Assembly: GCF_003428335.1 (NCBI RefSeq)
Contig: NZ_CP031704.1
Span: 4,216,001 to 4,280,000 of the forward strand
DNA: 64,000 nt
Direction: 5' to 3'
Source of the DNA: Solimonas sp. K1W22B-7
Lineage (GTDB): Bacteria; Pseudomonadota; Gammaproteobacteria; Nevskiales; Nevskiaceae
Of the stretch, positions 33,404 through 59,476 are shown one piece after another; the first letter of the stretch is position 1; every line of letters begins with the position of its first letter. The notes beneath the pieces are model-generated. The model searched no databases and was not told the origin of the DNA. It saw only the letters and a program-made list of their open reading frames with translations. A program made the position numbers and the translations under genes.

Positions 33404-34660
33404 TCATGCGGCCCAGCTCAGCCAGAGCGATTCGGGACCCACGACGTGGCCGCCGTGGTAGGCGACCGGCTTGGCCGGATCGAGCTTGAACGCGGGCAGG
33501 CGTGCCAGCAGCTCTTCGTAGATCACCTGCAGCTCGAGGCGCGCCAGATGCGAGCCGAGGCAGCGGTGCGGCCCCATGCCGAAGGCCACATGCACGGTTT
33601 CGCGGTTGAGGTCGTACTTGCCGGCTTCCGGGTACTCGGCGGAATCGAGGTCGGCGGCAGGCAGGAACAGCATGGCACGCTCGCCCGACTTCATGTCCAC
33701 GCCCTGGAAGTTCATGTCCTTGGCGACGCGGCGGATCGGCACGGTGAAGGTGTAGCGGCGCAGCAGTTCCTCGGCGGCCTTCGGAATCAGTTCCGGGCTC
33801 TGCCGCAGCTTCGCCTGCAGCTCGGCGTCCCTGGCCAGGTGCAGCACGCCCAGGCCGATGCCGTTGACCACCGTGTCGAGGCCGGCGGTGAACAGGACGA
33901 CGCAGTAGTTCTCCATGTCTTCCAGCGTCGTCGGCTTGCCGCCGATATCGGCCTGCCAGAGCATGCTGATGAGGTCGTCCCTGGGGTTTTCCTTACGCTC
34001 CAGCACGGTCTCGCGCATGATCGAGGTGAGCTTGAGCATGCGCCGGACGATGGCGCGCGGATCGGGATTCTTGATCCCTTCCATGTGCTCCTTCACCAGC
34101 ACACGGTATTCCTGCTGGCGCTCCAGCGGCAGGCCGAACATCTTCAGGAACACCTGCACCGGCAGCGGCTCGGCCACCTCCGTCAGGAAGTCGGCGCCGC
34201 CCTTGGCCTTGATCTTCTCGATCAGGTCCACGGCGAGATCGCGGATGCTGTCCTTGAGGGCCAGCATCGCCTTGGGCGAGAAGGCGCGCTGCAGCGGCAT
34301 GCGGTAGGCGGTGTGCGCCGGCGGATCGATGGTGATCGGCAGCGGCTGCGGGATGTGCGGGGAGCCCGGCGGCAGCTGCGCCATCATCGCCTTGAACTGC
34401 GCCTGCGGCACGATCTCGCTGGAGAAGCTTTCGGTGTCGCGCGAGGCATTGAAGTTCGCCGAGTGGCTCAGCAGCATCCAGTGGCCGCCGTTGCGCGGCG
34501 TCCAGAAGATCGGCGGCGCGTTCTTCAGCAGGTCCAGGATGCGCGCATGCGGATCGGCGACGTAGGCCGGGTCGGCGAACATGTCGAAGTCGTACATCAC
34601 CGCGTCGGTGATGTGCGCAGGCCTGGGGGCTGCGGGGCTCAGGTTGGGGGCATTGCTCAT
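33404..34660 (-). CDS. cytochrome P450, CYP101-like
   Basis: 418 residues, length and motifs of bacterial class I P450s. I-helix FTAGLDTVVNG (as in P450cam), EELLRRYTFTVPIRR (ExxR), haem loop FGMGPHRCLGSHLAR with Cys at about 367. CYP101-clade enzymes hydroxylate terpenoids or aromatic-ketone odorants with a putidaredoxin-type ferredoxin; a fitting ferredoxin gene is at 44272. GGAGTG precedes the ATG. It is divergent from the EthD-like/SDR pair, which suggests hydroxylation followed by alcohol oxidation. The substrate itself is not evident. Confidence 0.92.
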   Translation of the reverse strand: MSNAPNLSPAAPRPAHITDAVMYDFDMFADPAYVADPHARILDLLKNAPPIFWTPRNGGHWMLLSHSANFNASRDTESFSSEIVPQAQFKAMMAQLPPGSPHIPQPLPITIDPPAHTAYRMPLQRAFSPKAMLALKDSIRDLAVDLIEKIKAKGGADFLTEVAEPLPVQVFLKMFGLPLERQQEYRVLVKEHMEGIKNPDPRAIVRRMLKLTSIMRETVLERKENPRDDLISMLWQADIGGKPTTLEDMENYCVVLFTAGLDTVVNGIGLGVLHLARDAELQAKLRQSPELIPKAAEELLRRYTFTVPIRRVAKDMNFQGVDMKSGERAMLFLPAADLDSAEYPEAGKYDLNRETVHVAFGMGPHRCLGSHLARLELQVIYEELLARLPAFKLDPAKPVAYHGGHVVGPESLWLSWAA

Positions 34661-35031: not shown

Positions 35032-35796
35032 ATGGCCCTTTACACCAGCATTCACCTGCACAACGTGCCCGCGGGCCGCGAGGCGGGGTACGCCGCCTGG
35101 TTCGACGGCCCGCACCGCGAGGCCCTGGCGCGCCTGCGGGGCTTCATCACGACGGACCGCTACGAGGTGACGCCGGAGCAGATCATGCCGGACATCCCGC
35201 AGCCCTGGCGCTACCTCAGCGTCTACGACTTCGACCTGCCCCGCCCGGAAATCGACCTGCCCGCCCTCGGCCCGCTGCTGGCCGAAGCCCGCGACGCCGG
35301 CCTGGTGGCGGACGACGAAACCGAGAAGATTTACAGCTACCGTCTCTTCAGCGACTGGAAGTACAGCCCCAACTGGCGCCCGTCGGAACCGCTGTCGGGC
35401 GTGAGCATCATCCTGGCCAACTACGTCCCCGGACGCCGGCAGGAATACCAGACCTGGTACGAGGACGTGCACAGCGTCGAGGTGATCAACGTGCCGGGCC
35501 ACGTGGCGATGAAGCGCGGCGAGCTGTCGCCCATCCAGATCGAACCGCGCCACTACTGCCCCGGCGACCAGCTGGTGCTCTGCGCCCAGCAGACCGACGA
35601 CCTGCTCTTCACCCTCAAGGATTTCAGCGCGCGCGCCGGCGGCCGGAGCCCCAGCGGCATCGCCATGCAGCCGCGCTCGGCCTCGGGCTCGGTGGCGCGC
35701 ACGGTCCACTACTTCCGCAAGGTCAGCGGCACGCGCTTCTGGCCGGGCGGCATCGCCTACGGCGGCGACCTGTCCGTCTACCCCGGGAAGGGCTGA
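35032..35796 (+). CDS. tandem EthD-like / dimeric alpha-beta barrel protein
   Basis: 254 residues, apparently two copies of one domain. The first half has VPAGREAGYAAWFDGPHREALARLRGF; the second has YVPGRRQEYQTWYEDVHSVEVINVPG. Both align with the single-domain protein at 60538-60870. These ferredoxin-like domains (EthD/DUF4286 type) usually act as small monooxygenase-like or binding proteins; catalysis is not established. Start codon 35032, with GGGGAGG 16 bases upstream, which is far. The SDR gene follows after 3 bases, so the two form an operon divergent from the P450. Confidence 0.7.
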   Translation: MALYTSIHLHNVPAGREAGYAAWFDGPHREALARLRGFITTDRYEVTPEQIMPDIPQPWRYLSVYDFDLPRPEIDLPALGPLLAEARDAGLVADDETEKIYSYRLFSDWKYSPNWRPSEPLSGVSIILANYVPGRRQEYQTWYEDVHSVEVINVPGHVAMKRGELSPIQIEPRHYCPGDQLVLCAQQTDDLLFTLKDFSARAGGRSPSGIAMQPRSASGSVARTVHYFRKVSGTRFWPGGIAYGGDLSVYPGKG

Positions 35797-36580: not shown

Positions 36581-37393
36581 TCAGTCGCCGCTCTTCTTGC
36601 CGCCGATACCCTGGATGTAGCGCTTCATTCCCTCGATGTAGGCGGGGTTCAGCATCAGCGCACTGTTGGCCATGCGCTCGACATTGCGCGCCTGCGCCAG
36701 GCCGACGTCATGCGCCAGTTCGATGGCGAGCTTGGCCATGCCCATCTGCTCGCCGTTCTGCTCGGCCAGGTGGCGGCAGAAGCGCATCGTGTCCTCGCCG
36801 AAGCTTTCGTCCGGGAAGACCTCGTGGACCAAGCCCATGATCAGCGCGCGGTCGGCATCGACCGGCAGGTTGGCCATGATCAGGTAACGCGTCCAGTGCG
36901 TGCCGATCATGCGCGACAGGCGGCTGACGCCATTGGAAGCGGGAATGACGCCGAACTTGCCCTCGGGGAAGGCATAGCGCGCACTCTTGGCGGCCAGGCG
37001 GAAATCGCAGGACAGCGACAGCTCCAGGCCGCCGCCCATGCACATGGCGTGATGCGCGACGACGATCGGCTTCTCGATCGCCTCCATCTCGTCGTAGATG
37101 CGGTGCATGCCGTGCAGCTTCAGGCGATGGCTCTCGCGGATCGACGAGGCCGAGGGAGCCGCCTGGACGCGCGGCTCGCTGCCGCCGCGCAGGTCCGCGC
37201 CGGAGCAGAAATAGCGGCCGGTCGCGCGGATCAGCATGACCTTGAGTTCCGGCGTATCGCGGAAGCGATGCAGGCCCTGCTCGAACAGCGCCATCAGTTC
37301 GCCGGTGAGGGCATTGAGCTTGTCGGGGCGATTGAGCGTGACGACCAGGATCGCGCCGTCGTCCTCGGTCAGCAGATGCGGGGCTTCTGACAC
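36581..37393 (-). CDS. enoyl-CoA hydratase/isomerase
   Basis: 270 residues from GTG 37393, chosen because GAGGAGAG stands seven bases before it and it gives the family N-terminus (SEAPHLLTEDDGAILVVTLNRPDKLNAL); the frame is open 54 bases further without support. Oxyanion region ATGRYFCSGADLRGG; second site HHAMCMGGGLELSLSCDFRLA; FGVIPASNGVSRL follows, lacking a Glu where ECH1 has its acid. Sixth gene of the E1/lipoyl/Rieske operon, 13 bases after the fused ACAD. Confidence 0.88.
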   Translation of the reverse strand: MSEAPHLLTEDDGAILVVTLNRPDKLNALTGELMALFEQGLHRFRDTPELKVMLIRATGRYFCSGADLRGGSEPRVQAAPSASSIRESHRLKLHGMHRIYDEMEAIEKPIVVAHHAMCMGGGLELSLSCDFRLAAKSARYAFPEGKFGVIPASNGVSRLSRMIGTHWTRYLIMANLPVDADRALIMGLVHEVFPDESFGEDTMRFCRHLAEQNGEQMGMAKLAIELAHDVGLAQARNVERMANSALMLNPAYIEGMKRYIQGIGGKKSGD

Positions 37394-37406
37394 TGTTTTT
37401 CTCTCC

Positions 37407-39605
37407 TCAGGCGCGCGTGCGCGGCATCCCCAGCGCACGCTCGGCAATCATGCTGCGGTGGACTTCGCTGGTGCCACCGTAAATCGTCGTACCCTGCGCA
37501 TGACGATAGCACTGATTCAGCAGGCCGGCCGCACCGGCGCGCTTGGACAGCGAGTACGGCGCCGTGAGGTCGAGCAGGTCGCGGGCGTCGGTCAGGAATT
37601 TCTCCGAGGAGAACAGCTTGGCCATCGGCCCGTAGGCCAGGTTCGGCTTCTTCTCCGCGATGGTCCACTGCGCGCGGAAGGCCAGCATGTCCGACACCCA
37701 GAGGTGGGCCTTGCTGCGGGCCAAGCGGGCCTGGGCGGAGCGGTCCTCCAGCAGCGGCCTGCCCTCTTCCTGTATCTCGCGGCACAGATCTTCAGCGGCC
37801 TTGAGCATCGCGCGCATCACCTTGGAGAAACCGCCGCCATGCTCGAGTTCCAGGCTCGCGCTCATGGTGCGCACGCCGCCATCGACATCGCCCAGACGGT
37901 AGCTGTCGGGGATGCGCACGCCGTCGTAGAAGGTGATGTTGGTGCGCTCGTCCTGGAAGGTGTAGACCGGCTGGATGGTCACGCCATCGGCCTTCAGCGG
38001 GACGATGAACATGGTCAGGCCCTTGTGCTTGGCCACCTCGGTATTGGTGCGGCAGAGCATCAGCACGTAGCTGGCCAGGTTCGCGCCGCTGGTGAACATC
38101 TTGGTGCCGTCGATGCGCCAGCCGTCGCCATCGGGTGTCGCGCGGCATTGAGCCGCGAACACGTCGGAGCCGGAGCCGGGCTCGGAATAGCCCAGGCTGC
38201 AGATCACCTCGCCCGACATGACCTTGCTCAGCACGTCGCGCTTGAGTTCGTCGCTGCCGAAGCGATACATGATCAGCGACACCATCTGAGCCACGTTCGC
38301 CGCCGGGTTGTTGTAGCCCTGGTGCTCGAAGGCATCCATGGCCGCGATCTTGGCGTAGGGCGACAGGCCGCGCCCCCCCATCTCACGCTTCAGGCCCGGG
38401 AACAGCAGGTTGGCCTCGGCGAGCTTGCGGTTGATCTCGGGGTTGTAGCCTTCCCAGCTGTAGTGGAACTTCTCGCGCATCGCCGGGGTGACGTGCTTGT
38501 CGAAGAACGCGTCGATCTCCGCGGTGATGGCGCGGGCATCGTCACCCAGGTCGAAGTCGATGGGGCAGTCACCGGCCTCCGGCAGGGCCGCCTTCTCGCC
38601 CGCGTAGAGGCGCCGTCCGGCTTCCTCGAGCAGGCGCTGCGGGTCACCCAGCACCAGCGGCCAGGCCTTGGCGCGCAGGTTGAACAGGAAGATGTCGTAC
38701 TCGGTGGTGAGGCCGTAGCCGCCGAAGGTGTGCAGGGCCTGCGCAACGGCGCGGGCCGCGGCCTGCGTGTTCCACCAGGCGGCGATGGAAACCCCGGCGG
38801 CCGCTTCCGCGCTGCCATCGGCGATGTCGCGGATGGCGCGCCAGACCAGGAACTTGCCGCCGTCCACCTCGCAGAGCAGGTCGGCGAGCGGATGCGAGAT
38901 CGCCTGGAACTGGCCGATGAACTGCCCGAACTGCTTGCGCTCGCTGGCATAGGCCGCGGCCAGCCGCAGCGATTCGCGCCCGAGCCCGGCGAGGGCCGCC
39001 GCAATCAGCAGCTTCCATTCCTCCTGGGCCTGCGCCAAAGCCCTGAGCGCCTCGGTGCCGTGCGCCAGCGTGCTGCGCGGCAATGCCGCCAGGCGCAGTT
39101 CGGCGATGGCGGTCGAGGCCAGGTTCTCCTCGGCCTGCGCCGCGCCGGCGGCATTGACCAGCACGATCTCGTCGCCATGGCGGGCGATCACCGCGACCGC
39201 CACATTGCCGCCGGCCACCCATTGCAGCGGTCGGCTCGCGATGTCGTGGAAGGCGATGCCGACCACCGCGGCGCCGCTCATGACACGCTCCAGCAGTTCC
39301 GCTTGCCCGCCCAGCAGCGCCAGCAGACGCGCGGCGACCAGCGTTTCGGCAACCGGACCGGAGGCCAGCGTACGTCCCGCCTCCTCCATCAGCAGCACGG
39401 CATCCAGCAGGCCCAGGCCCAGGCCACCCGCGTCCTCAGGCACGCGGATCGAGAACGCCCCGAGTTCGGCCAGGCCGCGCCACAGCGCCGCGTCGAAGCC
39501 GGAAGGCAGGGCGGCGCGGACGCGCAGCGTGCTGCTCTGCTCACTGAGAAAGCGCGAGAAGGACTCGCGCATCATCTGCTGTTCTTCGGACAACTCGAAA
39601 TTCAT
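37407..39605 (-). CDS. fused double acyl-CoA dehydrogenase (FadE34-like)
   Basis: 732 residues, twice the usual size. The N-terminal half (1-370) is a degenerate ACAD ending in SERKQFGQFIGQFQAISHPLADLLCEV and LHTFGGYGLTTEYDIFLFNLR. The C-terminal half has the FAD and substrate motifs: LGYSEPGSGSDVFAAQCRA, MFTSGANLASYVLMLCRTN, and the final IYGGTSEVHRSMIAERALG. This matches FadE34/ChsE3, which in mycobacteria dehydrogenates steroid side-chain CoA esters. The start overlaps the Rieske stop by 4 bp (ATGA). Substrate presumably a bulky branched acyl-CoA. Confidence 0.92.
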   Translation of the reverse strand: MNFELSEEQQMMRESFSRFLSEQSSTLRVRAALPSGFDAALWRGLAELGAFSIRVPEDAGGLGLGLLDAVLLMEEAGRTLASGPVAETLVAARLLALLGGQAELLERVMSGAAVVGIAFHDIASRPLQWVAGGNVAVAVIARHGDEIVLVNAAGAAQAEENLASTAIAELRLAALPRSTLAHGTEALRALAQAQEEWKLLIAAALAGLGRESLRLAAAYASERKQFGQFIGQFQAISHPLADLLCEVDGGKFLVWRAIRDIADGSAEAAAGVSIAAWWNTQAAARAVAQALHTFGGYGLTTEYDIFLFNLRAKAWPLVLGDPQRLLEEAGRRLYAGEKAALPEAGDCPIDFDLGDDARAITAEIDAFFDKHVTPAMREKFHYSWEGYNPEINRKLAEANLLFPGLKREMGGRGLSPYAKIAAMDAFEHQGYNNPAANVAQMVSLIMYRFGSDELKRDVLSKVMSGEVICSLGYSEPGSGSDVFAAQCRATPDGDGWRIDGTKMFTSGANLASYVLMLCRTNTEVAKHKGLTMFIVPLKADGVTIQPVYTFQDERTNITFYDGVRIPDSYRLGDVDGGVRTMSASLELEHGGGFSKVMRAMLKAAEDLCREIQEEGRPLLEDRSAQARLARSKAHLWVSDMLAFRAQWTIAEKKPNLAYGPMAKLFSSEKFLTDARDLLDLTAPYSLSKRAGAAGLLNQCYRHAQGTTIYGGTSEVHRSMIAERALGMPRTRA

Positions 39606-41011
39606 GCGACGGATACTCCAGCGACCGGCGTGTCAACGGCGGTGCCCTTCAGATAGCGATCCAGTTCCTGGTGCATGTTGAGGATCATCTTCTCGTGCTC
39701 AACGGCCAGCCAGATCTGCTTGCAGCCGCGGGAGTGCAGACCCTTCTGCATGCGCGGGATGTTGTGGAAGTCCTGGCGCGGGATCAGCAGCACCTGCTCC
39801 GGGTCCATGATGTCGGTGATCTTCCGGACCTCGGCCCGCGGCGGTTTCACTGCGGCCGGGTAGGTCCTGGTGGAGAAGATCTCGAAGATGCAGCGGTCCG
39901 GGTCGTTCCCATCGGGCCGGATGCGGTAGATCATGGCGTTGCCGGCCTGCGGCAGGATCAAGAGGTTGGGGAAGACGAAGATCTCGCCGCCCCACATGCC
40001 CAGGATCTCGGGGACGGGCCTGGGCATGGGCCGCTGCTGCTGTGCGGCGGTGGTGTACAGGGCCTTGACGTACTCGGCGCCCAGGCTGGAGCCCTCGGGG
40101 ATGGGCTTGTCCTTCAGGGAGCGGACGATCTCGACGTCTTCCTTCAGGACCATGGCGTCCATGCCTTCGACCAGGAGATTCAGGCGGGCGGCCATCATTT
40201 CGATGGGGTCGCCGGCCTGGCGGACGTGGCCCTGCATGGGGGTCTTCTTGCCGGCAAAGAAGCGGCCGTGGCCGTGGGGGTATTTCTCGGTGTGGACGTT
40301 GCGGTGGGCGAAGTGGGCTTCGGCTTCGGCGCTGGGAGTGCCGTTCATGACGATGTCGGCGGAGTCCGGTTCCAGCTGGGGGTGGGTGGCCGGGACGTGG
40401 TAGCCCTCGAAGAAGGCTTCCTGGGCGACTTTCCAGTTGGCGGCGACCGGCAGGGCTTTCCACCAGTAGTGGTGCATCTGGCCGATGGCCAGGCCTTCGA
40501 TGAGCTCCCGGACCGGGGCGATGAAGTCGTCGAAGGGCTGGGGGTTGCGGTCGAAGTTGATGAAGACGAAGCCGGCGAAGACGACGTGGTGGACTGCACG
40601 CAGGGCGACGTCGCTGTCCTGCAGCTGGCCGCCGCGGAATTCGCCCCGTTCCAGGACGTATTCGTTCTGGCCCTGCAAGTTCCAGCGCCAGCCGTGGAAG
40701 GGGCAGATGATCTTGCAGTGGGGGAAGTGGCCGTTGCCGCCGCCGGACAGGGCGGTGCCGCGGTGCGGGCAGACGTTGTGGTAGGTCTTGACGCTGCCGT
40801 CTTCGGCGCGCACGACGATGACGGACTGGTCGCCAATGTCGTAGGTGGCGTAGTCGCCCACTTCGGGGATTTCGTCCAGGCGCGCGGCGGCCTGCCAGAC
40901 AGTGCTCCAGAGCTTGTCGTATTCCAGACGCGCGAACGCAGGGTCGGTGTAGCGCCCGCTGCGGATGCCGTGGTCAAGGACGCGCCAGCTTTCGGGCCAG
41001 GCGCTGCTCAC
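39602..41011 (-). CDS. Rieske non-haem iron oxygenase, alpha subunit
   Basis: 469 residues. Rieske ligands Cys81, His83, Cys103, His106 (CPHRGTALS and CPFHGWRW). Mononuclear iron ligands His205 and His210 in FFEGYHVPATHPQ, with an acidic ligand expected near the C-terminal third. Family: aromatic-ring-hydroxylating dioxygenase, size as in BphA-type alpha subunits, but no beta subunit, ferredoxin or reductase lies in the operon. It overlaps the lipoyl-domain gene before it and the fused ACAD gene after it by 4 bp each. Oxygenation of a CoA ester or its acid is possible. Confidence 0.9.
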   Translation of the reverse strand: MSSAWPESWRVLDHGIRSGRYTDPAFARLEYDKLWSTVWQAAARLDEIPEVGDYATYDIGDQSVIVVRAEDGSVKTYHNVCPHRGTALSGGGNGHFPHCKIICPFHGWRWNLQGQNEYVLERGEFRGGQLQDSDVALRAVHHVVFAGFVFINFDRNPQPFDDFIAPVRELIEGLAIGQMHHYWWKALPVAANWKVAQEAFFEGYHVPATHPQLEPDSADIVMNGTPSAEAEAHFAHRNVHTEKYPHGHGRFFAGKKTPMQGHVRQAGDPIEMMAARLNLLVEGMDAMVLKEDVEIVRSLKDKPIPEGSSLGAEYVKALYTTAAQQQRPMPRPVPEILGMWGGEIFVFPNLLILPQAGNAMIYRIRPDGNDPDRCIFEIFSTRTYPAAVKPPRAEVRKITDIMDPEQVLLIPRQDFHNIPRMQKGLHSRGCKQIWLAVEHEKMILNMHQELDRYLKGTAVDTPVAGVSVA

Positions 41012-41238
41012 AGGATCTCCGCGATCAATGCCCCGATGGGATAGACCTCACCGGTAGCCGCATGGACCTTGAGCATGCCCGAGGCCGGCGCCTCGACCTC
41101 CTGCACCGACTTGTCCAGCTCCAGGGTGTAGAGCGGCTTGCCCGCCTCCACCTGGCCGCCGTCGGGCACCAGCCATTCGGTCAAGGTGCCTTCCTGGGCG
41201 GAGAACCCGATCTGCGGGATGCGGACTTCGGTGCTCAT
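41008..41238 (-). CDS. free-standing lipoyl/biotinyl-carrier domain
   Basis: 76 residues forming exactly one lipoyl domain: VRIPQIGFSAQEGTLTEWLV, then the attachment hairpin LELDKSVQEVEAPASG with Lys43 as the expected modified residue, DKSV being closer to lipoyl (DKA/DKV) than to biotin (MKM). No E2 catalytic or subunit-binding domain and no E3 follows. The stop overlaps the Rieske start, and the start overlaps the E1-beta stop, each by ATGA. It may shuttle an acyl group or electrons from E1. Being on its own between E1 and a Rieske oxygenase is odd. Confidence 0.88.
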   Translation of the reverse strand: MSTEVRIPQIGFSAQEGTLTEWLVPDGGQVEAGKPLYTLELDKSVQEVEAPASGMLKVHAATGEVYPIGALIAEIL

Positions 41239-42257
41239 CGGCGGCCCTTCCCGTTCAGGGTCTGGCGGATCGAAGCCTCGATCGCGCTGGGTTTGTAGAG
41301 GTATTCCTGCTCCAGCACCTTGGCGAAGGGCACGGTGACGTCGCGCGAGGCCACGCGCAGCACCGGGGCCTTGAGTTCGCTGTACAGGTGCTCCTGGATG
41401 CGGGCGGCGACTTCGGCACCGGCGCCGAAGCTGCGGGGAGCTTCGTGGACCACGACCGCTCTTTGGGTCTTGGCCACCGATTTGAGGATGCTGTCGGTGT
41501 CCAGCGGCGAGACGGTGCGCAGGTCCAGGACTTCGACGGAGATGCCTTCGGCGGCGAGCTTCTCTGCGATGACCAGGGTGTCGCGCAGGGGGCGGCCGTA
41601 GCCGATGACGGTGACATCCGTTCCCTCTCTTGCGACGTTGGCCTGGCCCAAGGGGATGATCTTGCCCTTCTCCGGCTCGGGACCGGTCTGGGTGCGGGTC
41701 ATGGCGTCTTCGATGAACAGGCAGGGATCCTCGTCGAAGATGCAGCCCAGCAGCAGGCCGTAGGCGTCCGCGGGGCTGGAGGGGATGACGACCTTCATGC
41801 CGGCGACGTGGGCGAACCAGGCTTCCAGCATGTCGGAGTGCTGGCCGGCGGTGCCGGCCCCGGCGCCGGTACGGGTGCGGATGGTGATCGGGACGTGGGT
41901 CTGGCCGCCGGACATGAAGCGCAGCTTGGCGGCGTGGTTGACGATCTGGTCCATCGGTACGGTGATGAAGTTCATCAGCATGATCTCGGCCACGGGACGC
42001 AGGCCGGCCAGGGCGGCGCCGACGGCGGCGCCGACGATGGCCTGTTCGGAGATCGGGGTGGTGCGGACTCTGGATCCAAACTTGGTGGACAGGCCCTTGG
42101 TGACCTTGAACACGCCGCCGCCCTCTTCGTCGGCGATGTCTTCGCCCAGCATGATGACGCGGGGGTCCATCTCCATGGCGTCATGCAGGGCGCGGGAGTA
42201 GGCCTCGGTGAAGCTGATGGTTTTCGTGGCGGTGGTGGCGGCAGTGGGGGCGTTCAT
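41235..42257 (-). CDS. 2-oxoacid dehydrogenase E1 component, beta subunit
   Basis: 340 residues. Transketolase-like pyrimidine domain: FTEAYSRALHDAMEMDPRVIMLGEDIADEEGG (TPP-binding Glu in the AEIMLMNFI region), then TRTGAGAGTAGQHSDMLEAWF and the C-terminal domain VLDLRTVSPLDTDSILKSVAKTQRAVVVHEA. Closest in look to acetoin/pyruvate dehydrogenase beta chains (AcoB/PdhB). Start 42257 (ATGA with the alpha-subunit stop). It pairs with the alpha subunit to decarboxylate a 2-oxoacid. Confidence 0.9.
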   Translation of the reverse strand: MNAPTAATTATKTISFTEAYSRALHDAMEMDPRVIMLGEDIADEEGGGVFKVTKGLSTKFGSRVRTTPISEQAIVGAAVGAALAGLRPVAEIMLMNFITVPMDQIVNHAAKLRFMSGGQTHVPITIRTRTGAGAGTAGQHSDMLEAWFAHVAGMKVVIPSSPADAYGLLLGCIFDEDPCLFIEDAMTRTQTGPEPEKGKIIPLGQANVAREGTDVTVIGYGRPLRDTLVIAEKLAAEGISVEVLDLRTVSPLDTDSILKSVAKTQRAVVVHEAPRSFGAGAEVAARIQEHLYSELKAPVLRVASRDVTVPFAKVLEQEYLYKPSAIEASIRQTLNGKGRR

Positions 42258-43249
42258 GCCGGGGCTCCCGTGGGGTCTGCGTAGATGTCGCGGTTGATTT
42301 CGTCGAGGTCCGGCACGGGGCTGTCGAGGGCGAACTGCAGGGCGTCGTCGATGTCGGCTTCGATCTGCTTTTTCAGGTCTTCCAGCTCGGCTTCGCTGAT
42401 GCCGCTGGCCAGGACGGCGGCGCGGGTGGCGGGCATGGGGTCCTTGGCCAGGGCGGCGTCGTATTCGGCCTTGGGGATGTAGGCGCCGGGGTCGCCGAAG
42501 TAGTGGCCCATGAAGCGGAAGGTCTTGGCTTCCAGGAGCGTGGGGCCTTCGCCGGACCTTGCGCGGGCGACGGCGGCGGCAGAGGCGGTCCACATGGCTT
42601 CTGGGTCGTTGCCGTCGACGGTGACGCCCAACATGTTGGGGCCGTAGGCGGCGGCACGATCGGAGATGCGGGCGGAGGCGGTGGCCTTGCCGTACGGGGT
42701 GCATTCGCCGTAGCCGTTGTTCTGGCACAGGAAGATCACCGGCAGTTTCCACAGGGCGGCCAGGTTGAGGGCTTCGTGGAAGGCGCCGATGTTGGAGGCG
42801 CCATCACCGAAGCAGCACAGGGTGACCCGGTCCTCGCCCTTGAGCTGGCTGGCCCAGGCCAGGCCGTTGGCGATCGGCAGGCCGCTGCCCACGACACCCG
42901 TCGTGACCATCACGCCGGAGGCGGGGTGGGTGATGTGCATGGCGCCGCCCTTGCCCTTGCAGGCGCCGGTGGCCTTGCCGTAGTACTCGGCGAACAGGGA
43001 CCGTAGCGGGATCCCCTTGGCCAGCTGGTCGTGGATGCCGCGGTAGGTGGTCACCAGGTAGTCGCGGGCATTCAGGTGTACGCCCATCGCCGCCGCCAGG
43101 ATCTCCTGGCCGCGCGGGGAGTAGTACACCGCCGCCAGGCGGCCCGACCGCAGAAGACCGCGGAAGCGCTCGTCCACCAGGTGGATGCGCAGGGCGAGGG
43201 TGTAGACGGCCAGCAGTGCCGCTGGAGAGAGGGATTCGGTGGTAGGCAT
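42254..43249 (-). CDS. 2-oxoacid dehydrogenase E1 component, alpha subunit
   Basis: 331 residues. TPP motif GDG at 148-150 to NN at 177-178 (FGDGASNIGAFHEALNLAALWKLPV). The RGIHDQLAKGIPL and CKGKGGAMHI stretches are standard. It resembles AcoA/PdhA. Start 43249 has GAGGAGACGC before it; the frame extends upstream but into the AT-rich promoter. First gene of the minus-strand operon of six; the TetR at 43575 is divergent. The acid it decarboxylates is unknown; acetoin cleavage is unlikely in this context. Confidence 0.9.
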   Translation of the reverse strand: MPTTESLSPAALLAVYTLALRIHLVDERFRGLLRSGRLAAVYYSPRGQEILAAAMGVHLNARDYLVTTYRGIHDQLAKGIPLRSLFAEYYGKATGACKGKGGAMHITHPASGVMVTTGVVGSGLPIANGLAWASQLKGEDRVTLCCFGDGASNIGAFHEALNLAALWKLPVIFLCQNNGYGECTPYGKATASARISDRAAAYGPNMLGVTVDGNDPEAMWTASAAAVARARSGEGPTLLEAKTFRFMGHYFGDPGAYIPKAEYDAALAKDPMPATRAAVLASGISEAELEDLKKQIEADIDDALQFALDSPVPDLDEINRDIYADPTGAPA

Positions 43250-43574: not shown

Positions 43575-44219
43575 ATGAGGCAACCCCCGAAAGCAGGCAA
43601 GACGACCGTCAAGAAGGCCGGCAAGGCTGCGAGCCCGCGCCGGCAGTACGACAGCCCCTTGCGGCGGCAGCAGGCCGCGGAGACCCGCGAGCGCATCATC
43701 GCCGCCGGTGCCGAGATCGCGCACCGGCTGCCGGCCTGGGACTGGAGCCAGATGACCTTCAAGGCAGTGGGAGAGCTGGCCGGCGTCAGCGAGCGCACCG
43801 TGCATCGCTACATCGCCACCGAGCGCCAGCTGCGCGACGCCGTGCTGCAGCGCCTGTTCCAAGAGTCCGGCATCAGCCTCGACGGCCTTACCCTGGGCGA
43901 CTTCGCCGGCATCGCCACGCGCGCCTACCGCTACATCTCCTCGTTCACGGTCTCGCACTACCCGGTGACGGACCCGACCTTCGCCGCGATGGACCAGCAC
44001 CGGCGCGCGGCACTGATCGGCGCGGTGGTGCAGTCCACCCCGGGCTGGTCGCAGGAACAGCGGGAGATCGTGGCGTCGATGCTCGACATGTTCTGGCACC
44101 CGGCGCTCAACGAGCGCCTGACCACCAGCTGGCAGTTCGACGCCGACCGCGCCAGCCAGGCGATGACCTGGATGATCGGCCTGATCAACAAGGCGATCCA
44201 GCAGGGCCACAAGCCCTGA
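43575..44219 (+). CDS. TetR-family transcriptional regulator
   Basis: 214 residues. A Lys/Ala-rich N-terminal extension (about 25 residues) precedes the helix-turn-helix AAETRERIIAAGAEIAH...MTFKAVGELAGVSERTVHRYIATE. The ligand-binding part contains DMFWHPALNERLTTSW. It is not close to the pair at 3679 and 7286. Divergent from the E1/lipoyl/Rieske operon, so its likely target is that operon, via the palindrome at 43287. Ligand unknown; a CoA ester, as for KstR2-type regulators, is possible. Confidence 0.9.
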   Translation: MRQPPKAGKTTVKKAGKAASPRRQYDSPLRRQQAAETRERIIAAGAEIAHRLPAWDWSQMTFKAVGELAGVSERTVHRYIATERQLRDAVLQRLFQESGISLDGLTLGDFAGIATRAYRYISSFTVSHYPVTDPTFAAMDQHRRAALIGAVVQSTPGWSQEQREIVASMLDMFWHPALNERLTTSWQFDADRASQAMTWMIGLINKAIQQGHKP

Positions 44220-44271: not shown

Positions 44272-44592
44272 TCAGAACTGGCTGGCGGGCAGCCGCACGA
44301 CCAGGCCGTCCAACTCCTGCCTGACGATGATCTGGCAGGTCAGGCGGCTGTTTTCTTCCACGTGCAGCGCGCCATCCAGCATCATGGCTTCCTCCTCGGA
44401 CTGCGGCGCCAGCTTGTCCTTCCAGGCGGGATCGACATAGCCATGGCAGGTGGCGCAGGTGCAGCAGCCCCCGCAGTCGCCGACGATGCCCGGCAGCATG
44501 TTGTCGACCGCGGCCTGCATGACGCTCTTGCCCTCCTCGGCCTCGATGAGGTGCTGGGTACCGTTGTGCTGGATGAACAGAATCTTGGGCAT
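44272..44592 (-). CDS. 2Fe-2S ferredoxin, adrenodoxin/putidaredoxin type
   Basis: 106 residues, with cluster ligands Cys40, Cys46, Cys49 (CGGCCTCATC region) and Cys86 (RLTCQI). Size and spacing fit the vertebrate-type ferredoxins that pass electrons to bacterial class I P450s. No reductase gene is in the window. It may serve the P450s at 33404 or 7921 or, less likely, a Rieske oxygenase. Divergent from the XdhC-like gene; convergent with the TetR gene. Confidence 0.92.
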   Translation of the reverse strand: MPKILFIQHNGTQHLIEAEEGKSVMQAAVDNMLPGIVGDCGGCCTCATCHGYVDPAWKDKLAPQSEEEAMMLDGALHVEENSRLTCQIIVRQELDGLVVRLPASQF

Positions 44593-52263: not shown

Positions 52264-52599
52264 TTACACCAGGACTTCGATCCATTCACCCACGGTCCGC
52301 ACCTCGAATGTAGCGATGGGGTTCTTGGCCGGCAGGTTCATGGCCGCTCCGGTAGCCAGGTCGAAGCGCGCCCCGTGTACCGGACAGGCGATCCAGCCAT
52401 TGCCCATGCGGCCACGCTCCAGCGGCTTCTCGTTATGGGAGCAGACGTTCGAGATGGCGTAAAGCCTGTCGCCCTGGTTGCAGACCAGTACGCATCGGCT
52501 GCCCAGGGTTACCGCCTTCTTGGTGTTGGGCGGCAGGTCGGCGAGCCTGATGACGGGGGTGAACGCGCCGGATACGGCGGCATTGCCTTCTGTGCTCAC
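52264..52599 (-). CDS. Rieske-type ferredoxin
   Basis: 111 residues. Rieske ligands Cys53, His55, Cys72, His75 (CSHNEKPL, CPVHGARFDL). Small soluble Rieske ferredoxin that carries electrons to the terminal oxygenase (alpha subunit at 52609). It lies just after it on the same strand (9 bases). No NAD(P)H reductase is found next to the pair, so one must be supplied from elsewhere. Confidence 0.9.
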   Translation of the reverse strand: MSTEGNAAVSGAFTPVIRLADLPPNTKKAVTLGSRCVLVCNQGDRLYAISNVCSHNEKPLERGRMGNGWIACPVHGARFDLATGAAMNLPAKNPIATFEVRTVGEWIEVLV

Positions 52600-52608
52600 G
52601 CGCCCGCC

Positions 52609-54021
52609 TCAGGCCTTCTTGCCGACATAGCGGTCCACCGCCTGTTCGAAGTGGCGCAGGCGGATCTCCTGGTAGTTGCCCAGGGTCAGGCCGCGCTTGG
52701 CGCTGGCCTCCAGGCCCTCCTGCTGCAGGCCGACGTTGTCAGTGTCCTGGTCCAGGATCGCGCCGAAGCCCGGGTCCATGCCCTCGGCCTCGGTGAAGGA
52801 CTGATCGTCGCGCAGGTGGATCGGCTCGGCCGGCATCGGACGCGTGCCGTCCAGCGGTACCGGCCGCAGGAACAGCACCTCGTAGAGGCACTTGCGGTGG
52901 TCGTTCTTGTCCGGGCGGAAGCGGTAGACCATCGGCAGCGAGATGCCGGGGAACAGGAAGGTGTTGGGGAACACCGTGTACGAGAAGCAGTCCAGCAGCT
53001 CGGAATCCGAAACCTTCGACAGGTCGGTGTTGGTGGCCTTCTCGAACATGCCGCGGAACATCTCGGCCATCACCGCACGCGCGGTGCTGCCTTCCTTGAG
53101 CGAGAACTTCGTGTCACCCAGCGCGCTGCTGTCGCCCAGCGTGAACTGGTTGAGGATGTCCTGCTCGCTGACCTGGCCGTAGAGGTGCGGGCTGACCACG
53201 CCCAGCGTCGAGATGAAGCGGTCGACATGCTCGCCGTAAACGTCGTACTGCGAATTGGCGTCGCCGTTGGACGGGGCGACCTGCGGGTGCGTCTCGATGA
53301 CGTGATAGGCCTCCTGGAAGGCCTCGATCGCCAGCTTCCAGTTGCAGGGCAGGCGCTTGGTCACGTGCAGGTAGACGTAGCGGTTTTCCAGCTTCCAGGC
53401 GTCGATGTGCGCCTTGGCCTCGGGGCCGAGGTACTCGGCCAGTGCCGGGGCCTGCGGGTCCATGTTGATGAACACGAAGCCGCCGATGCGCTCGACGCGC
53501 GCCTGCGGCAGCGTGAAATTCTTCGACTGGACGTGCGGGAAGTCCCAGTGGCAGACGGTTTGCTTGTGCGTGCCGTCGATGTTCCAGCTCCAGCCGTGGA
53601 AACTGCACTTGAACTCCTCGGCATTGCCCTCGGTACCGGAGGCGCGCAGCTTGGTGCCGCGGTGGAGGCAGGCGTTGTAGTAGGCGCGGATTTCGTTTTC
53701 TGCCACGCGCGTGATGATGAAGGAGTAGTGCGCGAGGTCGTAGACGTGGTAGTCGCCGACCTGCGGGATGTGTTCCTCGCGGCAGACGAACTGCCAGGTC
53801 TTCTTCCACAGCGTGTCGAGCTCGAGCCTGGCAAAGGCGGGATCGATGTAGCGGTCGGTGGGAATATCCTCGTCGCCGAGGAACTGGTAGGACTCCGAGC
53901 GCACCCAGCCGGGCGCGGCCACCTTGTCGGCGGCGATGATGTCCTGGGTGCTCGGCGCGCCCGGGCAGCGGGCCTCGCCTTTCTTCAGGTCCGCCAGCTT
54001 GATCGTGGCTTGGTCGCTCAT
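52609..54021 (-). CDS. Rieske non-haem iron oxygenase, alpha subunit
   Basis: 470 residues from ATG 54021. Rieske ligands Cys118, His120, Cys139, His142 (CLHRGTKLRAS, CSFHGWSWN); iron ligands His240 and His245 in EAYHVIETHPQ. It differs from the alpha subunit at 39602 in the N-terminal 60 residues (extra ADLKKGEARCPGAPST). Oxygenates an aromatic or alicyclic ring; the ferredoxin gene follows it. It is second in the run starting with the amidohydrolase. The upstream open frame is a shadow of that gene. Confidence 0.92.
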   Translation of the reverse strand: MSDQATIKLADLKKGEARCPGAPSTQDIIAADKVAAPGWVRSESYQFLGDEDIPTDRYIDPAFARLELDTLWKKTWQFVCREEHIPQVGDYHVYDLAHYSFIITRVAENEIRAYYNACLHRGTKLRASGTEGNAEEFKCSFHGWSWNIDGTHKQTVCHWDFPHVQSKNFTLPQARVERIGGFVFINMDPQAPALAEYLGPEAKAHIDAWKLENRYVYLHVTKRLPCNWKLAIEAFQEAYHVIETHPQVAPSNGDANSQYDVYGEHVDRFISTLGVVSPHLYGQVSEQDILNQFTLGDSSALGDTKFSLKEGSTARAVMAEMFRGMFEKATNTDLSKVSDSELLDCFSYTVFPNTFLFPGISLPMVYRFRPDKNDHRKCLYEVLFLRPVPLDGTRPMPAEPIHLRDDQSFTEAEGMDPGFGAILDQDTDNVGLQQEGLEASAKRGLTLGNYQEIRLRHFEQAVDRYVGKKA

Positions 54022-55514: not shown

Positions 55515-55997
55515 ATGATCAGGGGCATACACCATGTGGCGGTCCATGTCCGCGATCTCGACCGGATGATCCGGTTCTACAAGGACGCCTTCGGCTTCGA
55601 GCTGGTCGGGGAGCCCTTCGGCTGGGAGAAGAACGAGTTCATCGACCGCATCGTCGACGTGCCCGATTCGGCCGCCCGCGGCGCCATGCTGCGCTGCGGT
55701 ACCTGCTACATGGAGCTGTTCCAGTACAGCGCCCCTGCCCCGGTCTCCGACCGCCCGCTGCAGCCCTACGACAAGGGCTACACGCATTTCTGCGTCGACG
55801 TCACGGAGATCGAGCAGGAATACGAGCGCCTGCGCGGCCTGGGCATGACTTTCAGCCAGCCCGCCCCGATCGACGTCGGCCATGTGAAGACCATCTACGG
55901 CCGTGACCCCGAGGGCAACCTCATCGAGATCCAGCAGACCGCGCCGCACTGCGACTTCCCGCTGGACAAGCTGGCGCCCCTGAGTCCCCTGGCCTGA
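55515..55997 (+). CDS. VOC-superfamily protein
   Basis: 160 residues. Glyoxalase-like fold: IRGIHHVAVHVRDLDRMIRFYKDAFGFELVGE with the first His, TCYMELFQY, YTHFCVDV, and YGRDPEGNLIEIQQ with the final Glu. Could be an epimerase, lactoylglutathione lyase-like enzyme or dioxygenase. Start 55515 has GGGGAG before it. Its stop overlaps the start of the ferredoxin oxidoreductase gene (TGATG), so the pair is coupled. Confidence 0.88.
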   Translation: MIRGIHHVAVHVRDLDRMIRFYKDAFGFELVGEPFGWEKNEFIDRIVDVPDSAARGAMLRCGTCYMELFQYSAPAPVSDRPLQPYDKGYTHFCVDVTEIEQEYERLRGLGMTFSQPAPIDVGHVKTIYGRDPEGNLIEIQQTAPHCDFPLDKLAPLSPLA

Positions 55998-58900
55998 TGA
56001 CGAAGTCCGTAACCACCCTCGACGACAAGTACCTGCAGACCGGCGGACGCGTCTTCATCTCGTCGAACCAGGCGCTGGTGCGCCTGCCGCTGGACCAGGC
56101 GCGACGCGACCGCGCGGCCGGCTTGAAGACCGCCGGCTACATCTCCGGCTACCGCGGCTCGCCGCTGGGCGTCTACGACTCGGCCCTGTGGGGCGCGCAG
56201 AAGCTGCTCGACGCGCACGACATCCGCTTTGTCCCCGGCCTCAACGAGGAACTGGCGGTCAGTGCCATCCGCGGCACGCAGCAGCTCGAATGGTTCGGCA
56301 AATCCGCGTTCGAAGGCATCTATGGCATCTGGTACGGCAAGGGCATCGGCGTGGACCGCGCCTGCGAGTCGCTCAAGCTCGGCAACCTCGAGGGCGCCGC
56401 GGCCAAGGGCGGGTTCCTGGCGATTGCCGGCGACGACCACGGCGGCAAGTCCTCCGACAGCGCGCACCAGTCCGAGCACACGCTGATCGCCGCGCTGCTG
56501 CCGATCCTGTATCCCGCCACCATCGGCGAGGTCATGGAATACGGCCTGTTCGGACTGGCGATGTCGCGCTACAGCGGCTGCTACGTCGGCCTCAAGTGCA
56601 TCACCGACACGCTGGACCTCTCGGCCTCCGCCGAGCTGCCGGACCCGCACCGACCGCTCCTCCTTCCCGCGGACTATGCGCTGCCTCCGGGCGGACTGAA
56701 CCTGCGTCAGAACCAGCCGGCACTGGTCGAAGAGGACAGCCTGGTCAACAAGCGCCTGCCGGCCGCCACCGCCTTCGCCCGCGCCAACGGCATCGACCGC
56801 GTGGTGATCGGCGGCGAGCGCCGCAGCCTGGCCATCGTCACCGCCGGCAAGGCCTATCTCGACGTGCGCCAGGCGCTGTCGGACCTCGGCCTTGACGAAG
56901 AGACCTGCCGCCGCCTCGGTGTGCGGGTCTACAAGCCGGGCCTGGTCTGGCCGATGGATCGCGAGCGCCTGGTCGATTTCGCCCAGGGCAGCAGCGCGGT
57001 GCTGGTGGTCGAGGAAAAGCGGCCGGTGATGGAAGACCAGGTGGCGCGCCACCTGTACGCCGTGCGCGCGGACCAGCGCCCCGCCATCGCCGGCAAGCAG
57101 GACCTGCAGGGCGCGCCGCTGCTGCCCGCCTCCGGCGAACTGTCGGTGCCGCAGGTGCGCCAGGCGATCACCACGCTGCTCGGGCAGATCGGCATCCGCG
57201 ACGAACGGGCGCAGACACAGTTCGACTCGTTCCGCAGCCTGGAAGCCCGCGCGCAGAACGCCGGCGGCGGCAGCAGCCGCCCGGCCTACTTCTGCTCGGG
57301 CTGCCCGCACAACACCAGCACCAAGACCCCGGACGGCGCGCTGGCGCTGGGCGGCATCGGCTGCCATGGCCTGGCCGCCGTGGTCATGGACCGCAACACC
57401 ATGCAGTTCGTGCCGATGGGTCACGAGGGCTCGCCCTGGGTCTCGGTGGGTCAGTACGTCGAGCTGCCGCATGTCTTCCAGAACATGGGCGACGGCACCT
57501 ACTCGCATTCCGGCATCCTCGCAATCCGCGCCGCCGTGGCGTCGAAGGCGAACATGACCTACAAGGTCCTGTACAACGACGCCGTCGCCATGACCGGCGG
57601 CCAGCCGGTGGAATCGGGCATCACGCCGGTGGGCATGGTCAACCAGTTGATCGCCGAGGGCGTGCGCCCGGTGCGCCTGGTGTCCGACAACCCCGAGCAG
57701 TACGCAGGCGTCGCCCTGCCGGCGAACGTCAGTGTGCATCACCGCGACGAACTCGACGCCGTGCAGCGCGAGCTGCAGCAGCTCAAGGGTGTTTCCGGCA
57801 TCGTCTACGAGCAGACCTGCGCCGCCGAGAAGCGCCGCCGCCGCAAGCGCGGCCTGCTCCCGGACCCGGACCAGCGCCTGTTCATCAACCCCGCGGTCTG
57901 CGAGGGCTGCGGCGACTGCTCGGTGCAGTCCAACTGCATCAGCATCCTGCCGCTGGAAACCGAGTTCGGCCGCAAGCGCAAGATCGACCAGTCCACCTGC
58001 AACAAGGACTACAGCTGCGTGAAGGGCTTCTGCCCGTCCTTCGTCACCGTCACCGGCGCGAAGATCGCGGTGCGCTCCAGCGGCGATCCCAAGCGCCTGC
58101 AGCAGCTCATCGCGCAGCTGCCGCTGCCGCCGGTTGCGGCGCTGGACCGGCGCGGCTGCAGCATCCTGGTCGGCGGCATCGGCGGCACCGGTGTGCTGAC
58201 CATCGGCGCGCTGCTGGGCATGGCCGCGCACCTGGACCGGAAGGGCTGCACGATCCTGGACCTGACCGGCATGGCGCAGAAGGGCGGCGCCGTCACCAGC
58301 CACATCCGCATCGGCCCCGATCCGGCGGGCATCTACACCTCGCGCCTCAGCGAGGGCATGAGCGACCTGCTGATCGGCTGCGACATGATCGTCGCCTCCG
58401 GCCAGCCGGTGCTGAGGACCGTGCGCCCCGGCCATACGGTCGCCATCCTCAACACCGACGTCGCCCCCACCGGCGACTTCCAGAGCAACAGGAACATCGA
58501 TCTCGGCGAAGAGCGCATGCGCCGCGCCATCATCGATGCGATCGACGGCGGGCCGCTGTTCGAACTGCCCGCCAGCCGCTTCGCCACCGAACTGACCGGC
58601 GACAGCATCGGCACCAACATCCTGATGCTGGGCTACGCCGCGCAGAAGGGCCTGCTGCCGCTGTCCATCGCCTCGATCGAACAGGCCATCCGCCTCAACG
58701 GCACCTTCATCGAGGGCAACCTGCGTACCTTCGCGCTGGGACGCCTGGCGGCGCAGGATCCCAAGTCCCTGGCCGAGGAGATCGGCGGCAAGAAGGAACT
58801 CGCTCCGCTGGTCACCGTCGATGACGTGCTTGCCAGCCGCACGCGCCTGCTGACGGCCTACCAGGACGAGCGCTATGCCGCGCGTTATGCCAACTTCGTC

Positions 58901-59476
58901 GATGGCGTGCGCGAGCGCGTCGCCGATCTGGGCCTGAAGAACGGCGATGGCTTCGTGCGCGAGGTGGCGCTGACGCTGGCACGCCTGATGGCCTACAAGG
59001 ACGAGTACGAGGTCGGCCGCCTGTATTCCGACCCGGCGTTCATGCAGCGCCTGCGAGAGCAGTTTTCCGGCGACTTCAGGCTGCAGTTCAACCTGGCACC
59101 GCCGATGCTGCCCGGCAGCGATTCCTCGGGCCGTCCGAAAAAGCGTGTGTTCGGCGCCTGGATGCTGCGCGCCTTCGGCATCCTGGCACGCCTTAAGCGC
59201 CTGCGCGGCACGCCCTTCGATCCTTTCGGCTACTTCCCGGAGCGACGCCTGGAACGGCGCCTGATCGAGGAGTACCGCAGGCTCATCGGCGACCTCCTCG
59301 GCCGGCTCGACCAGGCGCGGCTGCCGGTGGCCATCGAGTTGGCGCGCGCCGCCGGCGAGATCGGCGGCTACGGCCCGGTGAAGGAGGCCGCCGTGGAGAG
59401 GTATCACGCGCAGCTGCCGGCGCTGCTGGAAAAATTCGAACGATCCGCCGCGCCGCCCAGCGTTCGCGCGGCCTGA
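55997..59476 (+). CDS. indolepyruvate ferredoxin oxidoreductase, fused alpha/gamma
   Basis: 1159 residues, the fused bacterial form. The pyrimidine-binding part is N-terminal (ISGYRGSPLGVYD); TPP region YFCSGCPHNTSTK and IGCHGLAAVVMD; an iron-sulfur stretch near 630-680 with CEGCGDCSVQSNC and CNKDYSCVKGFC; and a C-terminal gamma domain GGIGGTGVLTIGALLGMAAHLDRKGC. It decarboxylates a 2-oxoacid and passes electrons to a ferredoxin. The sequence alone does not fix aryl-pyruvates as substrate; ring-derived 2-oxoacids are possible. Coupled to the VOC gene. Confidence 0.93.
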   Translation: MTKSVTTLDDKYLQTGGRVFISSNQALVRLPLDQARRDRAAGLKTAGYISGYRGSPLGVYDSALWGAQKLLDAHDIRFVPGLNEELAVSAIRGTQQLEWFGKSAFEGIYGIWYGKGIGVDRACESLKLGNLEGAAAKGGFLAIAGDDHGGKSSDSAHQSEHTLIAALLPILYPATIGEVMEYGLFGLAMSRYSGCYVGLKCITDTLDLSASAELPDPHRPLLLPADYALPPGGLNLRQNQPALVEEDSLVNKRLPAATAFARANGIDRVVIGGERRSLAIVTAGKAYLDVRQALSDLGLDEETCRRLGVRVYKPGLVWPMDRERLVDFAQGSSAVLVVEEKRPVMEDQVARHLYAVRADQRPAIAGKQDLQGAPLLPASGELSVPQVRQAITTLLGQIGIRDERAQTQFDSFRSLEARAQNAGGGSSRPAYFCSGCPHNTSTKTPDGALALGGIGCHGLAAVVMDRNTMQFVPMGHEGSPWVSVGQYVELPHVFQNMGDGTYSHSGILAIRAAVASKANMTYKVLYNDAVAMTGGQPVESGITPVGMVNQLIAEGVRPVRLVSDNPEQYAGVALPANVSVHHRDELDAVQRELQQLKGVSGIVYEQTCAAEKRRRRKRGLLPDPDQRLFINPAVCEGCGDCSVQSNCISILPLETEFGRKRKIDQSTCNKDYSCVKGFCPSFVTVTGAKIAVRSSGDPKRLQQLIAQLPLPPVAALDRRGCSILVGGIGGTGVLTIGALLGMAAHLDRKGCTILDLTGMAQKGGAVTSHIRIGPDPAGIYTSRLSEGMSDLLIGCDMIVASGQPVLRTVRPGHTVAILNTDVAPTGDFQSNRNIDLGEERMRRAIIDAIDGGPLFELPASRFATELTGDSIGTNILMLGYAAQKGLLPLSIASIEQAIRLNGTFIEGNLRTFALGRLAAQDPKSLAEEIGGKKELAPLVTVDDVLASRTRLLTAYQDERYAARYANFVDGVRERVADLGLKNGDGFVREVALTLARLMAYKDEYEVGRLYSDPAFMQRLREQFSGDFRLQFNLAPPMLPGSDSSGRPKKRVFGAWMLRAFGILARLKRLRGTPFDPFGYFPERRLERRLIEEYRRLIGDLLGRLDQARLPVAIELARAAGEIGGYGPVKEAAVERYHAQLPALLEKFERSAAPPSVRAA

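Follow-up and report, generated by a model that had tools for sequence, protein, structure and literature searches.

On the minus strand of a 64,000-nucleotide stretch of the Solimonas sp. K1W22B-7 genome (contig NZ_CP031704.1, positions 4,216,001 to 4,280,000; the window below), an operon at 36581-43249 joins genes for the alpha and beta subunits (E1a and E1b) of a thiamine diphosphate (ThDP) enzyme, a free lipoyl protein (LIP), a Rieske oxygenase (RIE), a fused acyl-CoA dehydrogenase (ACAD) and an enoyl-CoA hydratase. All six genes are open and each has Pfam support, so that the gene content given by the initial annotation stands. We regard the system as a genuine, conserved variant of the 2-oxoacid dehydrogenases in which E2 is split, apparently a known machine in unusual form. 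It is probably a 2-oxoacid or acyloin dehydrogenase with an untethered E2 and a shared E3, active in steroid- or terpenoid-like catabolism, the Rieske enzyme being another step. In such a mechanism E1, having cleaved its substrate on ThDP, would reductively acylate a lipoyl group on Lys43 of LIP; a separate E2 catalytic protein (E2cat) would encounter this free 76-aa carrier and pass the acyl group to CoA, and a shared E3 would re-oxidise the dihydrolipoyl group. The Rieske oxygenase, supplied with electrons by a ferredoxin, the fused ACAD and the hydratase would catalyse further reactions of that catabolic route, probably one for a steroid- or terpenoid-like polycyclic substrate.

The initial annotation found neither an E2 nor an E3. 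For the window this holds, but the genome (a single 5.37-Mb contig, C1) encodes both. One of the five PF00198 matches in this genome is free-standing: E2cat (C1:4311936-4312676), a 247-aa E2 catalytic domain with PF00198 as its sole Pfam match. Its alignment spans nearly the whole of the excised E2 cores 4n72 and 1eaa, and it is of AceF type (TIGR01348, 301 bits, under the cut-off of 552). The lipoyl and catalytic domains are thus not in one E2 chain but in two separate proteins. E2cat is located ~53 kb from the operon and 3.3 kb from a second E1a-E1b-LIP copy; an E2 acyltransferase catalytic domain is therefore present and linked to E1 and lipoyl genes. In many relatives a free E2cat gene directly follows LIP, and the earlier idea that a Rieske oxygenase sits in place of the E2 is not supported. 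Two E3 genes above the curated cut-off were found in this genome, none of them in the window; S. fluminis has one, which would then have to serve more than one complex. Sharing of E3 is also known from E. coli, as cited in PMC6067878.

Linkage of the split parts recurs in relatives (loci are labelled L, genomes G). Contiguous E1a-E1b-LIP-E2cat was seen in Pseudomonas (L109, L110), Zhongshania marina (L117), BRH_c0 (L108), a Vitreoscilla metagenome-assembled genome (MAG; L134), G021, G026 and G024 (L144-L146), two Paraburkholderia and a Diaphorobacter plasmid (L153-L155), and G230 (L174, with E1a cut at the locus edge). A Polaromonas MAG (L125) has E1b-LIP-E2cat at a contig start, L148 has E2cat-E1a-E1b-LIP, and Azospirillum B510 has RIE-E1a-E1b-LIP along with a second LIP that accompanies E2cat elsewhere on the same plasmid. 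The gene order in P. sprentiae is etfB-etfA-like, RIE, a gene similar to 3-ketosteroid-delta-1-dehydrogenase (KSTD-like), E1a, E1b, LIP, E2cat, FadD, two hydratases and two ACADs. When the own genome and 60 related ones were considered, LIP was present in 12/61, E2cat in 10/61 and both in 9/61 (Fisher p 1.2e-7, and 5.5e-7 when the own genome is excluded; kinship uncorrected); the classes were separated at ≥72 bits for LIP (next score ≤47) and ≥259 bits for E2cat (next 245), cut-offs chosen after the scores were seen. Among 24 genomes reached through loci, 14 have an E2cat match of at least 51%, the frame being 252-364 aa long in all but two (418 and 689 aa).

Several observations weigh against this reading. 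In this genome the E2cat gene is outside the operon, and no peripheral-subunit-binding domain was seen that could hold such a complex together. G010, G029 and G033 have LIP, with no E1 match close to it, but no E2cat, and G045 has E2cat but no LIP. A free E2cat at ≥51% was missing in 10 of the 24 genomes (ZJ7.bin44, which is a MAG, two Parafrankia, a Sphingomonadales MAG, four Nocardia, a Mycolicibacter and the genome of L131); where E1a-E1b-LIP-RIE is directly contiguous (11 genomes), a free E2cat was found in 8 and not in three (ZJ7.bin44 and the two Parafrankia). No E2cat match was present in the stretches of the actinobacterial E1/LIP/Rieske clusters of Nocardia (L105, L106, L107, L111, L118), Parafrankia (L101, L121, L122) and a Streptomyces plasmid (L156).

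Some short-frame E2cat hits were rejected upon inspection: three fetched from the four Nocardia genomes (two truncated at contig ends, the other part of a long frame that also has two lipoyl matches), one from the Sphingomonadales MAG (at a contig start, with an E3-like gene after it) and those of Parafrankia (one fetched for each of two genomes), which are part of a full-length E2.

Genomes with LIP and no free E2cat could also be explained if LIP were an extra lipoyl carrier for the full-length E2 of another complex (such as AceF), the free E2cat having some other task, e.g. acetyl transfer unrelated to LIP. Indeed, in each of eight genomes searched with PF00198 we saw full-length E2s: a short-frame match (254-355 aa; 689 in G001) was accompanied by longer E2 frames. 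Stand-alone E2-type acetyltransferases with a free 2-oxoacid_dh domain, not known to work with E1 or lipoyl partners, occur in tetronate biosynthesis; the free-standing domain is common to both, but the E2cat studied here is linked to E1 and LIP genes. A sequence feature sets E2cat apart from full-length E2s: DHRxxNG is found in 19/21 free E2cat rows (L112 repeats L108; L146 and L150 have Asp) and in 0/33 other E2 rows. However, Azotobacter E2p, active nonetheless, presumably has Asn at the same place, which we count against a borrowed E2, as we do the contiguous E1a-E1b-LIP-E2cat order in many genomes and the joint occurrence in 9/61; such borrowing is in our opinion unlikely.

In the E2 tree, from which cut Nocardia E2 rows (L167, L168, L169) and L112 were left out, 19 of the 20 free-standing E2cat rows share a branch with 8 full-length AceF-type rows (100/99), and the E2cat of L150 stands apart on a long branch. 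A single clade was not rejected, either for the 19 free E2cat (p-AU 0.80) or for all 20 (p-AU 0.09). The open frame above the PF00198 match is 7-82 aa long in the free rows (164 in L115) and at least 136 aa in the others except contig-edge L167, L168 and L170.

The carrier itself has the features of an E2 lipoyl domain. Lys43 is invariant (18/18 aligned rows); in an AlphaFold2 model (mean pLDDT 87) LIP takes the lipoyl/biotinyl fold with Lys43 in the turn joining two strands. The closest folds to the model are lipoyl domains, with biotinyl domains a close second, and the best PDB matches by sequence profile are E2 lipoyl domains. In all 37 of 37 LIP proteins of the E1 system the C-terminus is no more than 7 residues past the matched domain. 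Small stand-alone carriers of lipoyl type acting in trans are represented by LbpA of Hdr-like sulfur oxidation and GcvH (the glycine cleavage H protein); unlike these, LIP is of E2 lipoyl-domain type and goes with E1 and E2cat genes. According to PMC6067878, most LbpA proteins have two conserved cysteines. By that description (GcvH-like, two conserved Cys, hdr context) LIP is not an LbpA: it contains no Cys and its context is E1. The distribution of LIP is patchy: at E 1e-13, a cut-off that divergent LIPs would escape, it was found in 2/397 other genomes of a phylum sample and 0/368 of a class sample. Genes for 76-aa lipoyl-domain proteins also occur as orphans, away from any E1 or E2 match (L140:6523-6753, L141:7326-7556, L142:2015-2245); G033 has two equal-scoring copies.

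The E1 proteins carry the ThDP motif GDGASN...QNNGY along with TPISE and GQHSD, so that the Glu and His expected of E1-beta are there as well, which places them among 2-oxoacid dehydrogenase E1 enzymes. A quick tree put 40 E1 pairs of the lone-LIP system on one side of a branch (SH-aLRT 99) and, on the other, 8 reference pairs with full-length E2 (by annotation three acetoin, two pyruvate and one branched-chain, with two unassigned); the E1 is thus on a separate branch and not inside the acetoin-type clade. LIP matched above threshold in 37/40 pairs; it is under threshold in L122, the stretch of L035 ends short of LIP, and none was found in L123. Near copies (L062, L112) and loci with no E1a match within 1.8 kb (L125, L149) were left out of the tree, and L131, which has a 468-aa lipoyl-bearing frame, and L160 were left out of the groups. 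The clade is marked in E1-alpha by YRG(I/V/L)HD (His in 39/40, Asp in 40/40), where all eight references carry other residues, and by Thr117 in 40/40, where 6/8 references have Asn. This comparison yields a clade signature and no substrate; the residues may have a part in substrate choice.

Could the system be a plain pyruvate dehydrogenase (PDH) variant, making acetyl-CoA and found by chance among catabolic genes? The AceF type of E2cat would fit, and E1-beta passes the broad PRK09212 model (NCBIfam NF006667 subfamily, 328 bits with cut-off 321). On the other hand, E1-alpha is far under both NCBIfam PDH E1-alpha cut-offs (TIGR03182, 274 vs 394 bits; TIGR03181, 219 vs 411 bits), the clade is separate with a changed active-site loop, and linkage to Rieske, KSTD-like, ACAD and FadD genes is repeated in unrelated bacteria. 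We consider this variant quite unlikely.

The split system resembles the pyruvate, branched-chain 2-oxoacid and acetoin dehydrogenase complexes in having an E1 alpha/beta ThDP enzyme, a lipoyl domain and an E2 catalytic domain; it differs in that the last two are separate, with no binding domain or linker, and in its E1, whose active-site loop differs and which forms a clade of its own. That 2-oxoacid dehydrogenases are giant complexes is usually explained by the attachment of lipoyl domains to the E2 core; a recurrent natural pair of free carrier and free catalytic domain makes this rule testable. No description of a split system was found in the open-access literature searched, most subscription journals being outside its scope.

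We turn to the Rieske gene. The initial annotation proposed a coupled complex, in which LIP accepts electrons or an acyl group from E1 and passes them straight to the Rieske oxygenase or the ACAD, and a genome search for the order E1-alpha/E1-beta/lipoyl/Rieske. The order does recur in other genera, so that it being found only here is rejected; at the same time the E2 half, which would speak against the coupled complex, exists in trans. The sample was drawn through RIE: a search of 84,980 genomes yielded 295 relatives, from which we retained 79 distinct loci. E1a-E1b-LIP-RIE-ACAD-hydratase is kept in G001, G002 and G014; in G048 E1a-E1b-LIP-RIE is kept, with the ACAD ~2 kb further on and cut by the contig end (identities in the four are 64-86%). 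RIE comes immediately after LIP in the same orientation at 12/79 loci (L061-L065, L067, L072, L079, L099, L101, L121, L122), the 11 genomes being Solimonas, Stenotrophobium, Sinimarinibacterium, Nevskia, Zhongshania, Aestuariicella, Parafrankia and MAGs; the direct order is thus found both in Gammaproteobacteria and in Parafrankia. One gene separates LIP and RIE in L104, and L094 has a divergent arrangement. Further, RIE is upstream of E1a-E1b-LIP in 10/79 loci, with a KSTD-like match in between in 9 of the 10. Matches to E1b and LIP are both in the stretch at 28/79 loci (one of them, L131, with a longer lipoyl-bearing frame); they are not at the remaining 51/79. Conversely, stretches of 14-24 kb around E1/LIP in L039, L144, L145, L148, L153, L155 and L157 have no Rieske match, although in L148 a Rieske gene is ~24 kb off on the same contig.

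Parts of the operon have been copied within the genome. The second E1a-E1b-LIP copy (L039:9993-12215, ~C1:4315992-4318214) is 98.83% identical over 2223 bases without gaps, and no RIE match is in the 20 kb read around it. A separate copy of RIE (97.64% over 1358 bases; L037:10243-11600, ~C1:1570242-1571599) has KSTD-like and P450 genes near it. The duplicated pieces end at window positions 41003 and 41006, 3 bases apart. Since relatives keep the joined order, the sequences suggest separate recent duplication or gene conversion of the E1a-E1b-LIP and RIE parts.

Delivery from LIP to the Rieske enzyme gains from the direct same-strand adjacency at 12/79 loci, from the three of those 11 genomes in which no free E2cat was found, and from E1/LIP of distant type, which also adjoins window-type Rieske genes in L099 and, divergently, in L094. 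Yet LIP adjoins E2cat in many relatives, E1/LIP copies occur without Rieske in the stretches read, Rieske was duplicated alone in this genome, ferredoxin genes are behind Rieske in relatives, and 51/79 Rieske loci have no E1b plus LIP match in the stretch. Direct delivery is highly improbable in our judgement, and we set it aside as the principal explanation in view of E2cat beside LIP elsewhere, E1/LIP without Rieske and ferredoxin beside Rieske; the most likely role of the Rieske enzyme is that of a neighbour in the pathway.

RIE has the Rieske CxH...CxxH motif along with PF00848; Cys81/His83/Cys103/His106 and His205/His210 are invariant in five rows. Glu202 is at the place of what we take to be the bridging Asp of most members, with Glu presumably also in CntA. 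RIE is under the cut-off of the NCBIfam model of glycine betaine monooxygenase GbcA (113 vs 670 bits), and no KshA model was matched in Pfam or NCBIfam. Ferredoxins are usual donors of Rieske oxygenases, and a 2Fe-2S ferredoxin gene comes after RIE in Streptomyces (annotated) and two Nocardia loci (by eye).

As to the pathway, clusters of bacterial steroid catabolism contain KstD and side-chain ACADs. Similarly, the Rieske gene adjoins a KSTD-like gene in relatives, and the best PDB relatives of the fused ACAD are Tcur3483, 4x28 and Tcur3481, which we take to be steroid ACADs; unlike in steroid clusters, the Rieske enzyme is without a KshA match. We know of no E1/lipoyl step in known steroid pathways. 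The KSTD-like protein of L109 is above the NCBIfam cut-off for 3-ketosteroid-delta-1-dehydrogenase (864 vs 789) and the one of L037 is below (593); the best NCBIfam model of the hydratase is EchA19 (139 bits, under the cut-off of 400). Plasmids of 10 Sphingobium Tom strains from tomato roots also carry LIP (60.5%); in TomMM15 a stretch of 41 kb encodes LIP, E1a and E1b together with a Rieske protein, a free PF00198 protein and KSTD-like genes. Degradation of steroidal glycoalkaloids and sapogenins by such Sphingobium is reported in PMC10653915; the main text of that article is without the words ‘Rieske’, ‘lipoyl’ and ‘acyl-CoA’. Taken together, the gene cluster may serve the breakdown of steroid- or terpene-like molecules. 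On a Sphingobium RAC03 plasmid (L157:12001-22321) LIP, KSTD-like and E1a/E1b genes are beside those of homogentisate dioxygenase, fumarylacetoacetase and maleylacetoacetate isomerase, a hint of ring aromatisation in that pathway.

The changed-loop E1 clade in steroid- or terpenoid-like degradation clusters suggests that a C-C bond is cleaved in a step not described in the literature searched. One could speculate that this ThDP subfamily, with a diffusible H-protein-like lipoyl carrier, opens polycyclic terpenoid or steroid rings: Rieske, P450 and KSTD-like steps would make an alpha-hydroxyketone or 1,2-diketone, E1 would cleave that C-C bond, and free LIP would hand the acyl end to CoA (via E2cat in Proteobacteria, via another acceptor in Actinobacteria). 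Such a role is rather doubtful; if true, it would be a lipoyl-dependent ring cleavage by an untethered complex.

The initial annotation reported four exact ATGA overlaps between the operon genes. Three are ATGA on the minus strand (42254-42257, 41235-41238, 39602-39605), but the LIP/RIE overlap reads GTGA (41008-41011) and is not conserved: gaps of 31, 31, 14 and 69 bases replace it in four relatives (L029-L032; starts chosen by script), where the E1-beta/LIP and Rieske/ACAD 4-base overlaps are each kept in 3/4. The hydratase start is indeed 13 bases past the ACAD stop. Overlaps of 4 bases are by themselves frequent in bacteria; the cluster is more than chance because its order is conserved in relatives.

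Table 1. Genes of the operon and selected neighbours (window coordinates)
Feature	Position	Strand	Evidence
E1-alpha (331 aa) of 2-oxoacid/acyloin-dehydrogenase-type ThDP enzyme	42254..43249	-	PF00676 (E1_dh) 242 bits
E1-beta (340 aa)	41235..42257	-	PF02779/PF02780; Transketolase_C 134 bits, Transket_pyr 123 bits
LIP, free-standing lipoyl carrier (76 aa), Lys43	41008..41238	-	PF00364 (Biotin_lipoyl) 52 bits
RIE, Rieske non-heme iron oxygenase large subunit (469 aa), GTG start	39602..41011	-	PF00355 (Rieske) 60 bits, PF00848 (Ring_hydroxyl_A) 85 bits
Fused double ACAD (732 aa)	37407..39605	-	two ACAD halves by Pfam, single chain
Enoyl-CoA hydratase/isomerase family protein (270 aa), GTG start	36581..37393	-	PF00378 (ECH_1) 138 bits
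2Fe-2S ferredoxin-like protein, candidate Rieske electron donor (putative role)	44272..44592	-	NCBIfam fdx_isc 54 bits, under cut-off 132; no Pfam match at 0.001
Divergent regulator, TetR-like by eye	43575..44219	+	translation inspected by eye; no Pfam match at 0.001
Cytochrome P450, candidate pathway enzyme	33404..34660	-	PF00067 73 bits

The window P450 has one homologue (64.7%) next to the second Rieske copy and another (61.6%) in L031, after the hydratase gene. Small proteins, EthD-like by eye, are repeatedly encoded near LIP (window 35032-35796; L174:338-658; L105:15630-16055, directly after LIP); the L174 protein is 40.5% identical to the window protein over 37 residues, and the window and L105 proteins have no Pfam match at 0.001. 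Elsewhere in the window, a second Rieske oxygenase (~52264-53895, minus strand), 38% identical to RIE over the N-terminal part, goes with a small Rieske-type ferredoxin gene (52264-52599). At 55997-59476 there is a 1159-aa fused protein similar to 2-oxoacid:acceptor oxidoreductases (POR domain, DUF6537), and a related frame is at L037:933-2354, in the locus of the second Rieske copy.

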